64,000 bases of DNA from Helicobacter cetorum (GCA_022729705.1 DZAX01000004.1:1-64000), one strand, 5' to 3'; shown: positions 54,647 to 60,438, numbered from the stretch's first letter. The notes: generated by a model not told the origin, from the letters alone. Translations and numbers: made by a program.

Positions 54647-55423
54647 TTAAACTTGTTTTGCGAGAGCATCTAACGGTAACGGCTTTTGAAACACAAACAG
54701 ATGCTCGTGCATGATAAGGAGAAAATTCGCCTCTTTTGATTTTTTGACCCAAAAGCCTGTGGCTTTGCAGTTGTGCTGGTGTTTGATAATATCCTCTTTG
54801 AGCGCAAAACCGACTTTGATAAATCTTTGCATTACCATAAACGCCAAAGGTTGATACATCTTTTTGCGTCTTGTGTCGCCTATGAGGAGGGCGCAAAATT
54901 TACCGTCTTTTAGCGCCCTAAAAAGCTCCGCCGCCACTCTCTCTATCTCATCGCAAAACTTCTCCAAATCGTGTATATGCGACAAATCGCCCTCTATGTC
55001 GTCCGAATACCTGATAATGTCGGCGTATGGCGGGTGTATAAGAGCAAAGTCTATGCTTTTAGCCTTTACAATATCTATATTCCTAGCGTCTTTTTGAACC
55101 AGTTTTATTTTTGGGTCATACTCGCATTCAAAATCCAAAGCTGTTTTTGTAATCTCTAGCGCATTTGGGTTTATATCTAGCGCAAGCAAGTTTCTATTTA
55201 GCAGTTTGCACTCTATCGCCGTCGTGCCGCCGCCTATCATCGGGTCAAGCAGATATTCGCCCTCAGCGGAGTAGCGAAGCAGTAGATTTCGCACAACCTC
55301 CGGCGACCAGTTGCCTCTGTATTTGCTGTTGTGCGTAGCCCATGCGCCGCGACGCGGGAAGCTCCAAACAGTTGTGCATTCTTGTTCAAACTCGTCTGGG
55401 TTTAATTTTGTTATTTTTTTCAT
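54647..55423 (-). CDS. Site-specific DNA methyltransferase with HPPY motif
   Basis: The 258-residue protein has the SAM-binding motif LLDPMIGGGTTAIECKLLNR (about 59-78) and the catalytic motif ALIHPPYADIIRYS (HPPY at 130-133), followed by IEGDLSHIHDLEKF and ALLIGDTRRKKMYQP. HPPY in place of DPPY is the known variant of this amino-methyltransferase family (N6-adenine or N4-cytosine). There is no nuclease gene clearly paired with it; it ends the seven-gene run that starts with the Dam-type gene. Recognition sequence unknown. Confidence 0.85.
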   Translation of the reverse strand: MKKITKLNPDEFEQECTTVWSFPRRGAWATHNSKYRGNWSPEVVRNLLLRYSAEGEYLLDPMIGGGTTAIECKLLNRNLLALDINPNALEITKTALDFECEYDPKIKLVQKDARNIDIVKAKSIDFALIHPPYADIIRYSDDIEGDLSHIHDLEKFCDEIERVAAELFRALKDGKFCALLIGDTRRKKMYQPLAFMVMQRFIKVGFALKEDIIKHQHNCKATGFWVKKSKEANFLLIMHEHLFVFQKPLPLDALAKQV

Positions 55424-55425
55424 CT

Positions 55426-55722
55426 TTAAATCAGTAGAAAATATCTATTGATACCTTCCTCTGTGACATGCTCGCGAGAAAAGTCGATTATCTTCTTTCT
55501 GTCTATCTCATACGATTCAAGCTCTTGCGCCGTATTGAACCCTATCAGCTCCACATTCTCAAACTCTCCAAATTCTCTATTCCTCCCTTTGTCCATACAA
55601 TAGTAGTCCCAATTACCACTTCCGCAAAAAATAAAAGACTCTTTCGCTTTTTTTGAGCGACAAAATTTTTCGCCAGTAAAGCTATATAACTTTTCATAAA
55701 TTTTTTCGTATTCAGTTTTCAT
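55426..55722 (-). CDS. Hypothetical protein between HTH and methylase genes
   Basis: I do not recognise this 98-residue protein (MKTEYEKIYEKLYSFTGEKF onwards). It has an aromatic-rich centre (CGSGNWDYYCMDK) and an acidic C-terminus. It begins directly after the stop of the HTH gene (TAGATG) and ends two bases before the methylase ATG, so the three are one translational unit. A role as partner of the HTH protein or methylase is inference. Confidence 0.7.
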   Translation of the reverse strand: MKTEYEKIYEKLYSFTGEKFCRSKKAKESFIFCGSGNWDYYCMDKGRNREFGEFENVELIGFNTAQELESYEIDRKKIIDFSREHVTEEGINRYFLLI

Positions 55723-55920
55723 CTAGCTACCTTTATGTGTTAGCGAAACAGATATTTCAAGCCCTAGATAATCCAGTATCTTATGCAGGGTTTTGTTGTT
55801 TAGATTGCTTGTCCTGATGGCTTGATAAAACACGACCTTATCAATACCTAGAGCTTTATAAACATCAGAGGTCTTTAACCCTCTCTGCGCCAAAACAACT
55901 TTTATCTCTTTTTCAAACAA
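55723..55920 (-). CDS. Small HTH regulator
   Basis: A 65-residue protein with a helix-turn-helix of the Cro/CI or antitoxin kind: KVVLAQRGLKTSDVYKALGI, then DKVVFYQAIRTSNLNNKTLH and a C-terminal LDYLGLEISVSL. Its size and place after the DpnII-like gene (43 bases) and before a methylase fit a controller (C) protein of a restriction-modification system. An antitoxin role with the next gene is an alternative. Confidence 0.72.
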   Translation of the reverse strand: MFEKEIKVVLAQRGLKTSDVYKALGIDKVVFYQAIRTSNLNNKTLHKILDYLGLEISVSLTHKGS

Positions 55921-55963: not shown

Positions 55964-56893
55964 TTAGTTAGTCTTATTATTTACTATAAAATCTAATATT
56001 CCATTTTTGAGCATATCTAAATTAATTACATAGTCGTTATGATTAAAGGTTTCTTCAAGCGGTCGCAATGATGTTTTCCAACCTGCGCCGTCCGTTATCC
56101 ATATAAGACCGTAATTCTGACTTTTTAGCAAACCGTCTAGGCTTTTATACTCCTCTGCCGTGGCTTTTAGTTTTGAACCGCCACCGCTGTAAAAATTAAC
56201 TTCGATTAAGAAAAGTTTTTTACTTGTTTTATGAAATAAAGCAAAATCAAACCGTCTACTTTTTTTGTCAATGCCAACAGCGCAATTAAACTCTTTAAAT
56301 ATTTTATCCTCGCTAGCTTGCGAAATATAGGTAAAATCAGGCTCTTTTTTGCAAAAATTAACTAAGAAGTTTTCTACTATCTCTTCCATTGATGAACCGG
56401 TTCTATTTTTTCTCGCATTGCTGTTTAGTCCAACCTCTATACCAAAAACGTAATCAACCAAATTTTTAATATCATAGTCGCAAAATAAAGATTTCAGTCC
56501 TGTTTTTTCTATAAAATCGTAGTAATGATTTATAATGTCTATATTTACTAAATTCGGTTTTTTAAAAACAAATCTATAAATATTTAGATCTTTGTAGTTA
56601 TCTATAATGCTAATTTCTCTGTCTCTACTTGCCAGCAAAATTGGTAAAGCTTCGACAATAGCTGGATTTTGCCTCAATAGATATTCAAAATCTTCTCTAA
56701 AACTTTCTTTTTTACCTAGCAGAAAATTTAAATTGTTAAGTAATAATTCATATTTTTTCTTATTTTCTAAAACCGTATTCCAGTCTACAAGATACTTGAA
56801 ATCGGCTATTGTTGGTATAAAATTTTTATACAAGTATTCAAAGGCATTTTCAGCTCTAATATTTTGCTTTATAATAAAATCTTGATATTTCAC
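55964..56893 (-). CDS. DpnII-family type II restriction endonuclease (GATC)
   Basis: The 309-residue protein matches the DpnII/MboI family, which cuts unmethylated GATC. The PD-(D/E)xK core is at about 214-243: FDFALFHKTSKKLFLIEVNF, then YSGGGSKLKATAEEY, the hallmark of this family. Length is normal (DpnII is 288 residues). It overlaps the preceding gene by four bases. The matching Dam-type methylase lies upstream in the same operon, separated by two unrelated genes. Base composition is more AT-rich than in neighbouring housekeeping genes. Confidence 0.88.
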   Translation of the reverse strand: MKYQDFIIKQNIRAENAFEYLYKNFIPTIADFKYLVDWNTVLENKKKYELLLNNLNFLLGKKESFREDFEYLLRQNPAIVEALPILLASRDREISIIDNYKDLNIYRFVFKKPNLVNIDIINHYYDFIEKTGLKSLFCDYDIKNLVDYVFGIEVGLNSNARKNRTGSSMEEIVENFLVNFCKKEPDFTYISQASEDKIFKEFNCAVGIDKKSRRFDFALFHKTSKKLFLIEVNFYSGGGSKLKATAEEYKSLDGLLKSQNYGLIWITDGAGWKTSLRPLEETFNHNDYVINLDMLKNGILDFIVNNKTN

Positions 56894-57756
56894 TTTAATA
56901 ATTCTCCTATCAGAGCCTTTGTGCTCGCATTAATATTATGAAATACCGTATCGTATTTTTGATTTATAGCATTGGATAATCTTTGAATTTTTATTTTAAA
57001 AGCCGGATTTATGGCTTTTATTTCATCTAACAACATAGACAAAAATAGAAACCTCTTTTCGTTTATAATCAATAATTGGAAATAGTCCGGATAATCTGAA
57101 CTGATTTTGTTTTCTAAAACAATATCATCATGCCACTTTTTATACCTGTCAAAATACTCAGTTTCTAAATTTATTTCTTTATAGTGTTTCAGTCGATAAT
57201 TGATTTCATTTCTTATTTCTGATTCTTTGATTTCATTATCGATAGTGTATTTAAATAAATTACTTGCCGCTGGATCGATATTGACCGTAGCAGCTATTTG
57301 GTTAAATTTGGCTCTGCTATTAACTTCCCAAGGCTTAATTCTTTCATAGTTCTTTTTAAGTATACTGAACTCTCTTTCATGACTACTATGTCCGTCTTGT
57401 TGTAGCGTCAAATCATATAAATTAGAACTAGAATCAAGTTTAATCATTTTGTTAAACTTATCATTGACATAAACATAAAACTTATCAGACAATCTATTTA
57501 ATATTTGGGCTAAATAAAAATTTGAATAATACACAGTCACAAATCCCCATGTCCAATAGTTTTTTTGAAACTCTATATCTGATGATAATTTATTTAAAAT
57601 AGCTTTTTCAATCAAAACCAAAATATCATTTAAAAGATATATTTTTAAATCAATGAAAGAATCCCTATTTTGAATGGCAATTTTTATAGCCTCATTGACG
57701 CTCTTATCGTTGGATACCGTAAAATCTTTAAATTTGTTTGTATAAAAATCAAACAT
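56890..57756 (-). CDS. Unknown helical protein inside the restriction operon
   Basis: I do not recognise this 288-residue protein. It is mostly helical, lysine- and asparagine-rich. Residues 66-90 (NYWTWGFVTVYYSNFYLAQI) recall the aromatic helix of HEPN-type proteins, but the usual RxxxxH motif is not evident. It starts one base after the DGQHR gene and overlaps the DpnII-like gene by four bases, so it is translated with both. Low GC suggests transfer as a unit with its neighbours. Confidence 0.7.
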   Translation of the reverse strand: MFDFYTNKFKDFTVSNDKSVNEAIKIAIQNRDSFIDLKIYLLNDILVLIEKAILNKLSSDIEFQKNYWTWGFVTVYYSNFYLAQILNRLSDKFYVYVNDKFNKMIKLDSSSNLYDLTLQQDGHSSHEREFSILKKNYERIKPWEVNSRAKFNQIAATVNIDPAASNLFKYTIDNEIKESEIRNEINYRLKHYKEINLETEYFDRYKKWHDDIVLENKISSDYPDYFQLLIINEKRFLFLSMLLDEIKAINPAFKIKIQRLSNAINQKYDTVFHNINASTKALIGELLK

Positions 57757-57757
57757 T

Positions 57758-58813
57758 CTATAGCTCTATTTTCCCAATTTTATCTTCACTTTTAAGGCTA
57801 TCTTTTAATATTTTTGTGAATTTTTTACTGAAATTATCCTGAGCTTTTACTCCTCCGCCAATACCGTTAGATAGACTCTCTAGCGTATTTTCCTGAATCT
57901 TTGCAAGAGTAAAAATAATACTATTTTCTTTAAAATTTTTATGCTCGATAAATGTTTCGTCAAAAACATCGCCTAAAGATTTTATCAATCCTCCCAAAAC
58001 TGTCGTTTTAAAGACTACGCCCTTTTCCCAATCGCTTTCAAAAACAACTTTTATAGCGTTAAAATAATTTATAAAAATTTGAACCTGCTCATTAAATGAA
58101 GAACCTTTAAATTTTCCGTTTGTGTAGTTTATGTACTCTTTCACAAAAGGTGATATTGACGATAAACTAATTTTTTTAGCTTCTTCTCCAGTCATTGCAA
58201 TCAAATCTTTTAAACACGATTCGTCGTTAAAGTTCAAATCTCTTATAATTTCCGTTGCCTTTTGGTCAGCTGTTATATTCTCGCTATCCAAATTATCACG
58301 AATATCTTCATCAGAAGTTGTGCTAATCAAATCCATATATAATGAAGTTGGCAAAGGCGTTTGAGTTTTATTGATGGTTATAAAAAGTCTTGCTTGATGC
58401 TTTGGTTCTAAATCGGCAACCGCAACAACAATCAACTCAAATTTTGGACTAAACTCATACCCTCCTTTAGCCCTATGTTGACCATCTATTATTAGACCTT
58501 TATACCCATCTTCATTATCGCTAATAATTAACTCTTTTGTGTCTTCTTTATATTCTATGCTATCCAAAGCGATTAAAACATTGCTAGGTAGTATTGATGG
58601 ATAAGAATCTGGTGATTTTCCGCTCAAATATGCGACTATCTCTTTTATCTTTTTCCCTCTGACTATTCTTTGATAACCGTCGTCTCTATTTTCTAATCTT
58701 CTTGAAATAACGAAGTGATTATGTATCTCTTCGGAAGTCAATTTAAAAACATACAATTTTAGGCTATTTTGCACAACAATTAAGGGGTCTTTTATAATAA
58801 GATCATTTTGCAT
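57758..58813 (-). CDS. DGQHR-domain (DndB-like) protein
   Basis: The 351-residue protein has the DGQHR motif (110-114, in GLIIDGQHRAKGGYEF). It is preceded by QRIVRGKKIKEIVAYLSGKS and PSILPSNVLIALDS, the arrangement of DndB-like and related proteins distantly akin to ParB. DndB regulates phosphorothioate modification in Dnd systems, but no dnd gene is present here. It lies three bases after the Dam-type methylase and one base before the unknown gene. Its role in a restriction operon is not established. Confidence 0.82.
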   Translation of the reverse strand: MQNDLIIKDPLIVVQNSLKLYVFKLTSEEIHNHFVISRRLENRDDGYQRIVRGKKIKEIVAYLSGKSPDSYPSILPSNVLIALDSIEYKEDTKELIISDNEDGYKGLIIDGQHRAKGGYEFSPKFELIVVAVADLEPKHQARLFITINKTQTPLPTSLYMDLISTTSDEDIRDNLDSENITADQKATEIIRDLNFNDESCLKDLIAMTGEEAKKISLSSISPFVKEYINYTNGKFKGSSFNEQVQIFINYFNAIKVVFESDWEKGVVFKTTVLGGLIKSLGDVFDETFIEHKNFKENSIIFTLAKIQENTLESLSNGIGGGVKAQDNFSKKFTKILKDSLKSEDKIGKIEL

Positions 58814-58816
58814 TTT

Positions 58817-59689
58817 TTAACTCCTACCGTTTTTTATTATAACTTCTTTTATCTTCCCACGCCCGCTACTCTTGCTATTGATAAACCTATTTACCTCAAC
58901 AAACTTTATATCATAGCCCATGTAAAGCTCTTTAATAAACTCTGTATCAGAATTGGAGTGCATAGCCGATACACCTTTATCGTTCAGCTCTTCAAAAACC
59001 CCAAAAAGCCTCTTTTGCTCCTCATCCAAAAACACATTTTCATGATACGCCGTAAAGCTCGAAGTTGGATTTAGCGGATAGTATGGAGGATCAAAATATA
59101 CAAAATCGCTCTCTTTTGCATAGTCTAATACTTTAGCAAAATCAACATTTTGAATCTCCGCATTTTGTAAAGCCACGCTAGCCGCCACAATCAACTCTTC
59201 TTCGTAGATAATCGGATTTTTATATCTACCAATCGGCACATTATGGTAGCCTTTGCTATTTACCCGCCAAAGCCCGTTAAAGCAAGTTTTGTTCAGATAG
59301 ATAAACCTCGCCGCTCTTATCTCGTTTGGCAGGCTCTTAAATCCTTCCTCTCTATCCATAGCTCTCGTGGTGTAGTAAAACTCTTCAGAGTGTTGCACCT
59401 GAAACTCGCGAAGTTGTTTGAGTAGTTTTTTGGGTTGTTTTTTGACTGTTTTATATGTATTGATTAGTTCGGCGTTTGCGTCAAAGAGATACGCTTTTTT
59501 ACCCCTCAGCACTCCAAGCCTCGTAAGTTCAAAAAACAGCGCGCCGCCGCCGATAAACGGCTCAAAGTAGTTGTTAAATTCTTTTGGCATTAGCCTTAAA
59601 AGTTCAGGCAACAAAGCCCGTTTACCGCCCGCCCATTTGATGAACGGTCGCACTTTTACAAGCGATAAAGCCTCTACTCCAATTGTCAT
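58817..59689 (-). CDS. Dam-family adenine methyltransferase (DpnM type)
   Basis: This alpha-class N6-adenine methylase has VRPFIKWAGGKRALLPELL (residues 14-32 from the chosen start), the PFIGGGALFFEL SAM loop and the catalytic FVYFDPPYYPLNPTSSF (DPPY at 200-203). With a DpnII-family nuclease in the operon, GATC is the likely target. The open frame extends upstream to 59770, but that part lies in a direct repeat, so I take the ATG at 59689 (290 residues). Confidence 0.88.
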   Translation of the reverse strand: MTIGVEALSLVKVRPFIKWAGGKRALLPELLRLMPKEFNNYFEPFIGGGALFFELTRLGVLRGKKAYLFDANAELINTYKTVKKQPKKLLKQLREFQVQHSEEFYYTTRAMDREEGFKSLPNEIRAARFIYLNKTCFNGLWRVNSKGYHNVPIGRYKNPIIYEEELIVAASVALQNAEIQNVDFAKVLDYAKESDFVYFDPPYYPLNPTSSFTAYHENVFLDEEQKRLFGVFEELNDKGVSAMHSNSDTEFIKELYMGYDIKFVEVNRFINSKSSGRGKIKEVIIKNGRS

Positions 59690-59720
59690 ACCCGCCGCGC
59701 TCCCTGCAAAACTTTTACGC

Positions 59721-59793
59721 AAATTGTACCCGCCAAACGCAAAAAAAAAGCCCACAATTCCGACGTCCACACGCCCATAAGCTTTTGACTCTC
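59721..59793. repeat. 73-bp direct repeat, copy 1 (before the Dam-type gene)
   Basis: Identical to 60366-60438 except for four bases. It is a copy of the 3' end of the acetyltransferase gene plus a promoter-like GGGTACAATTT (minus strand), which here would drive the Dam-type methylase. The reading frame of the acetyltransferase tail (QKLMGVWT) is still visible. Confidence 0.85.
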
Positions 59794-60340: not shown

Positions 60341-60365
60341 TATGCAGCCCCTTGTTTTTGTTTTC

Positions 60366-60438
60366 AAATTGTACCCGCCAAACGCAAAAACAAAGCCTAC
60401 AATTCCGCCGTCCACACGCCCATAAGCTTTTGGCTCTC
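60366..60438. repeat. 73-bp direct repeat, copy 2 (end of the acetyltransferase gene)
   Basis: Sixty-nine of 73 bases match 59721-59793. This copy contains the last codons and stop of the acetyltransferase gene and a GGGTACAATTT promoter-like box on the minus strand in front of the antitoxin gene. It is probably the original copy, because the acetyltransferase frame is intact through it. Confidence 0.85.

Follow-up and report, generated by a model that had tools for sequence, protein, structure and literature searches.

A pair of genes inside a GATC restriction-modification (R-M) operon of Helicobacter cetorum raises the question of what a DGQHR protein, together with an adjoining protein of 288 amino acids (aa) that belongs to no family (here termed X), contributes between a DNA methylase and a nuclease. 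The operon lies in a window of 64,000 nucleotides (nt), which is the whole stretch of DNA analysed (GCA_022729705.1 DZAX01000004.1:1-64000). The answer put forward here is that a mobile two-gene DGQHR-X module was built into the operon, where the two proteins would serve the R-M system as a back-up, one as sensor and the other as HEPN-like effector, a reading to which we give slightly less than an even chance.

The unit is encoded on the minus strand with its 3' limit at 54647, in the order Dam-type methylase, DGQHR, X, DpnII nuclease, helix-turn-helix (HTH) protein, 98-aa protein and second methylase. It is led by an N6-adenine methylase of the Dam/DpnM type and D12 class (58817-59689; PF02086, E 6.9e-65; TIGR00571, 282 bits with a cut-off of 115) with discernible DPPY and FxGGG motifs and an expected GATC specificity. 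The DGQHR protein of 351 aa follows (57758-58813; TIGR03187, 125.4 bits, cut-off 58.85), then X (56890-57756), a candidate HEPN-like effector, and a type II restriction endonuclease of the DpnII family (55964-56893; PF04556, E 2e-86, 290 bits, cut-off 23), for which GATC is likewise the expected site. An earlier note on this DNA had described these four genes as packed with gaps or overlaps of 1-4 bases, and both the places and the spacing hold: 3 nt separate methylase and DGQHR, 1 nt separates DGQHR and X, X and DpnII overlap by 4 nt (GTGA), and the family matches agree. The low GC content attributed to the unit stands for DGQHR, X and DpnII (0.316, 0.272 and 0.295, respectively) and not for the Dam-type methylase (0.405 versus 0.41 in the window).

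A single scan over a public genome collection with X as query led to three loci. The order DGQHR-X-DpnII is kept with equally tight spacing in metagenome-assembled genomes (MAGs) of Sulfurovum (L001) and Aliarcobacter (L002), and since order and spacing are both repeated there, the arrangement seems to be more than chance. The full order with the Dam-type methylase in front, sought in other genomes as a check on the earlier note, is present in both. The Aliarcobacter locus has all seven genes in the order of the window; the Sulfurovum locus carries Dam, DGQHR, X, DpnII, HTH and a partial 98-aa gene up to the contig end. The identity to the window proteins is 83-85 % for DGQHR, 62-80 % for X, 73-74 % for DpnII, 67-68 % for the HTH protein and 70 % (L001) or 58 % (L002) for Dam. 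In addition, Dam-DGQHR-X stands at a contig end in an Arcobacter MAG (L003) and in the genome G174 (L007). Among 396 other Campylobacteria genomes, X was found in 3; it is rare and scattered, which is what a mobile unit would lead one to expect. Weak matches in two further genomes (G289 and G290) were rejected as chance, their reading frames being full of stops.

This recurrence bears on an alternative in which DGQHR-X would be a selfish addiction module or neutral cargo trapped between R-M genes. The spread of the pair among mobile elements would suit such an origin, as would the relBE toxin-antitoxin genes immediately ahead of the unit, which are enclosed by a 74-nt direct repeat. However, the same place and order are found in three contigs of different genera, with a conserved 4-nt overlap of X and DpnII, and we consider this explanation very unlikely.

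Outside the Campylobacteria the two genes travel together. With DGQHR as query, a protein of about 300 aa was found to be encoded immediately behind DGQHR on plasmids of Leptospira, Acinetobacter, Providencia and Burkholderia as well as in an Acinetobacter phage and the filamentous phage PfAC19. The plasmid X proteins surfaced only via their DGQHR neighbours, a tblastn search of plasmids with the window X alone giving none; the Providencia pair was also looked for in E. coli genomes, again with no match. When viral contigs were scanned with a DGQHR alignment, 42 loci came up. The DGQHR gene is readable in 41 of them and has X as its immediate downstream neighbour in 32, a proportion biased upward by a query alignment that included DGQHR proteins already known to occur with X. 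The two genes are mostly separated by a 1-nt gap or share a 4-nt overlap, and they abut in one of these ways in hosts, plasmids and phages alike. Furthermore, the trees of DGQHR and X, built for 39 pairs, mirror each other (mirror-tree r 0.90, a value reached by none of 2000 permutations). DGQHR and X are thus co-inherited. Their sites (phages including a filamentous Pf phage, plasmids, and a plasmid with R-M genes) fit those typical for defence genes. In the Pseudomonas phage PfAC19 the pair is accessory cargo adjoining the repressor gene (L021:4971-6950). A Tritonibacter plasmid (L064:2240-5783) carries X without DGQHR and, directly upstream, an IS21-like transposase pair that has probably displaced DGQHR.

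The methylase and nuclease partners of the pair are exchanged. Ten viral contigs have the arrangement methylase-DGQHR-X, the methylases tested belonging to PF01555 (phage β-class); an Acinetobacter plasmid has a methylase, a NotI-type nuclease, DGQHR and X; other pairs stand alone, 25 of the 39 in the tree set being without an adjacent methylase. On the tree, methylase linkage takes 4 changes compared with 11.6 after shuffling (0 of 500 as low), with the NotI case apart. Because the methylase-linked pairs cluster and the NotI case is separate, R-M partners were gained at least twice.

The chief rival explanation starts from these linkages. According to it, DGQHR-X is itself a restriction arm, in which DGQHR would cut or nick unmethylated DNA, as GmrS-type relatives may, with X as essential partner while the neighbouring methylase protects the own DNA; the phage triads would then be complete R-M-like systems, and the pair in the window would add to DpnII. 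In line with this, the triads (viral contigs and L011) have no recognisable nuclease behind X, the methylase-linked pairs group on the tree, and relatives with the ParB/sulfiredoxin (Srx) fold are reported nucleases or NTPases (PMC10853773, PMC4619093). However, the many pairs without an adjacent methylase do not suit a restriction arm, nor is a nuclease motif shown for DGQHR, and we regard this explanation as unlikely.

What DGQHR itself may do is suggested by its predicted fold. The AlphaFold model (pLDDT 81) has as its best Foldseek matches in the PDB the pNOB8-type ParB-N domain 5k5d (prob 1.0, E 8e-4) as well as SspE and further ParB domains, which assigns the modelled protein a ParB-N/sulfiredoxin-like fold; sequence searches of the PDB with X, DGQHR or their alignments gave no match. 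A DGQHR-like motif and a ParB/Srx fold are also found in GmrSD (DUF262), but the pair of the window has no HNH partner domain and is tied to a type II R-M operon. The DGQHR domain (TIGR03187) and the ParB-like fold are common to DndB and DpdB as well. However, the window protein reaches neither the DndB equivalog TIGR04172 (DGQHR_dnd_1; 59 bits, cut-off 450) nor the DpdB equivalog NF041060 (91 bits, cut-off 300), the unit is without dnd or dpd genes, and the partners are X and an ordinary methylase. In PADLOC-DB 2.0.0, DGQHR matches DpdB models only. Since both equivalog cut-offs failed, the function of DndB or DpdB is not transferable to this protein, which corrects the analogy to DndB drawn in the earlier note.

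A milder form of this analogy would have DGQHR-X control the expression of the R-M genes or act on them as a checkpoint, much as DndB does for dnd genes, with X as a helper and no toxic effector. The relative DndB is reported to be an ATP-dependent negative regulator (PMC4507180, PMC10853773), and the pair lies inside the operon near an HTH protein. This downstream HTH protein is, however, already a possible controller, and many phages and plasmids carry DGQHR-X without R-M genes; we consider such a regulator quite unlikely.

Other DGQHR proteins have other partners. An apparently membrane-spanning protein is paired with DGQHR in two loci (L016 and L020), both beside a Dam-type methylase, and DGQHR adjoins a GIY-YIG nuclease in L019 and an HNH nuclease in L018. 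These associations give DGQHR the look of a single sensor whose partners or effectors can be swapped. In the two membrane-type loci (L016:1084-5051 and L020:3485-6035) the order is Dam-type methylase, small hydrophobic protein and DGQHR, the other partner replacing X; L016 also has a BglII/BstYI-type nuclease, whose known site includes GATC. A second type of DGQHR protein with about 770-810 aa was seen without X in five viral contigs (L037, L056, L060, L061 and L063), and a D12-class methylase is adjacent in both contigs tested (L056 and L063).

The X proteins form one divergent family of 44 sequences connected by transitive phmmer links, which is absent from Pfam, NCBIfam, PADLOC (PADLOC-DB 2.0.0) and PHROGs. 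All 37 X sequences compared share Y76, R182 and Y187, the position of H126 is kept in 36 of 37 and W70 is near-invariant. The motifs follow the order W-x5-YY in a helix, a conserved histidine, and RNxxNY in a later helix. In HEPN-T (AF0298) and AbiV the histidine of the motif is lost and another histidine between helices 2 and 3 may substitute for it (Anantharaman et al., PMC3710099). X shows the same pattern, with the arginine kept, the motif histidine replaced and H126 placed between the predicted helices 68-89 and 178-188, and because the motifs follow this description, X may be likened to HEPN-T/AbiV. The AlphaFold model of X (pLDDT 76, pTM 0.80) is largely helical with strands among the helices, and its top PDB match by Foldseek probability is the HEPN protein AF0298 (2hsb; prob 0.44, TMt 0.57, E 3.2). 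The helical protein expected from the earlier note was thus found in the model, with a HEPN fold as the nearest solved one, at an E value that does not confirm it. One viral X matches PF05168, the family of HEPN-T, across the motif-bearing helix (E 0.0021). X differs from HEPN-T/AbiV in its about twofold length and in lacking significant sequence similarity, and PF18728 (AbiV) matched neither the window X nor the members of set A4. A fold search of BFVD with X gave no match. Taken together, motifs and model make it moderately probable that X is HEPN-like.

That R-M systems may be coupled to suicide genes of the HEPN kind has been established as a hypothesis (PMC3506569, PMC3710099), and the reading preferred here, the built-in sensor-effector module, takes the following form. 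DGQHR-X would have been inserted into a DpnII-type operon, behind its leading methylase gene and ahead of the nuclease gene. DGQHR, with its ParB-N/sulfiredoxin-like fold, is likely to bind DNA, a nucleotide or both, and it may restrain X or free it upon a signal, which could be unmethylated or cut DNA or the loss of the methylase during invasion or R-M failure. Freed X, probably HEPN-like, would then attack RNA or otherwise halt growth and so serve as a suicidal second line after cleavage by DpnII. Several results weigh against this reading. The fold match of X to 2hsb is not significant; the PF05168 match concerns one of 26 members scanned, and an E value of 0.0059 came up for a PDB entry that clearly has no relation; hhalign of X with Campylobacterota PF05168 proteins gave 0.1%, the same as ferritin and reversed controls. 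The window X has Rx8H instead of the canonical Rx4-6H; the Rx6H of several relatives, by contrast, counts in favour. Furthermore, DpnII was not found in two of the five Campylobacterota genomes, i.e. those of L003 and L007. The suggestion of the earlier note that X is an effector is not supported beyond a weak HEPN-like resemblance.

A broader reading sees in DGQHR-X a defence system in its own right, widespread and so far undescribed, borne by temperate phages and plasmids and composed of a ParB-fold sensor and a HEPN-like or otherwise new effector; we hold this to be possible, at somewhat less than even probability. The window would then represent a merger of DGQHR-X with a GATC R-M operon. 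Two modes are proposed, either that the pair guards an R-M system and fires upon failed methylation or cut DNA, or that it takes a neighbouring methylase for its own self-mark. The undescribed composite defence system supposed by the earlier note is in part retained, given that the order recurs in other genera with the two added genes coupled in translation, that the wider family is a mobile pair, as suits a role in defence, and that no description was found in the literature searched, but the pair is not specific to DpnII, as it also occurs with other methylases, with a NotI-type nuclease or alone.

The nearest described kind are the methylase-ParB-HEPN operons noted in 2013 (PMC3710099). Their MAE_28990 operon, with a HEPN protein, a ParB nuclease and a DNA methylase, has the same three kinds of genes if X is a HEPN protein. 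However, MAE_28990 is listed with a conserved Rx4-6H, whereas the window X is without this motif and no HEPN model matches it; its Pfam hits, taken up to E 10, include no model named MAE_28990, a direct profile comparison not having been made. The arrangement as such was already known, the X family and the way it spreads as a module were not, and the chance that the system is distinct is fair. A literature search with partial coverage of subscription journals and preprints found no description of DGQHR next to DpnII together with X. In Mycobacterium abscessus, clades have been linked to a dpnIIA methylase and a DGQHR gene (2022, PMC9248903), an independent hint that this association extends further. 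DGQHR proteins are annotated in many genomes, but apart from those in dnd and dpd clusters their job is not known; the constant partner family, the agreement of the trees and the repeated link to methylases now offer a testable function for them, that of the sensor in a module of two genes. X adds a protein family missing from the libraries searched. If the pair fires upon R-M failure, it would tie restriction to suicide directly, in a minimal design of two proteins that lends itself to transfer into laboratory strains.

The remaining genes of the unit complete the comparison with classical operons. Behind DpnII lie a 65-aa Cro/C1-type HTH protein (55723-55920, minus strand; HTH_26, PF13443, 29 bits, cut-off 22), which is a candidate controller, a 98-aa protein without family match (55426-55722, minus) that is conserved in L001 and L002, and a second DNA methylase (54647-55423, minus; PF01555, E 6.8e-22; PDLC03376, E 7.7e-89). 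The contrast implied by the earlier note to the two methylases of classical DpnII operons was wrong, because the unit extends to this gene, and its family matches identify it as a two-methylase GATC R-M system plus extra genes. Like the window, operons of the DpnII/LlaDCHI type (pSRQ700, L067; an L. brevis plasmid, L066) start with a Dam-type methylase and have a second methylase of PF01555, and the window nuclease is 41% identical to that of pSRQ700. In these classical plasmid operons, Dam is followed by the second methylase and only then by the nuclease, whereas in the window DGQHR-X occupies this slot and a methylase of another motif order is found downstream with the HTH and 98-aa proteins. 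Its FxGG motif precedes PPY, an order unlike that of the DpnA-type enzyme of pSRQ700. In genomes without X, relatives of this methylase lie directly behind DpnII (G003), behind Dam, DpnII and another nuclease-like gene (G175), or near Dam (G013). Because these close relatives adjoin GATC R-M genes, it is predicted to play the second-methylase part of DpnII systems. In G013, a 175-aa protein without assignment is encoded between Dam and the second methylase (L101:6120-6647); it may be a different GATC nuclease that takes the place of DpnII.

Strong site avoidance is seen in the window (1-64000), with observed/expected ratios of 0.20 for GATC, 0.10 for GGCC and 0.24 for CGCG; sampled contigs of G000, G397, G398 and G008 were also examined. 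GATC avoidance was rejected as a sign of activity, since relatives without the system show ratios of 0.11-0.34. Upstream of the unit, the toxin-antitoxin pair, of the relBE/YafQ type, is flanked by two copies of the 74-nt direct repeat (59720-59793 and 60365-60438) that are 95% identical. A search of 20 related genomes did not find the flanking gene for a GNAT acetyltransferase, and hence no empty site is demonstrable. The outer repeat copy overlaps the 3' end of this GNAT gene, which suggests that the relBE/YafQ pair was inserted by duplicating the end of the gene.

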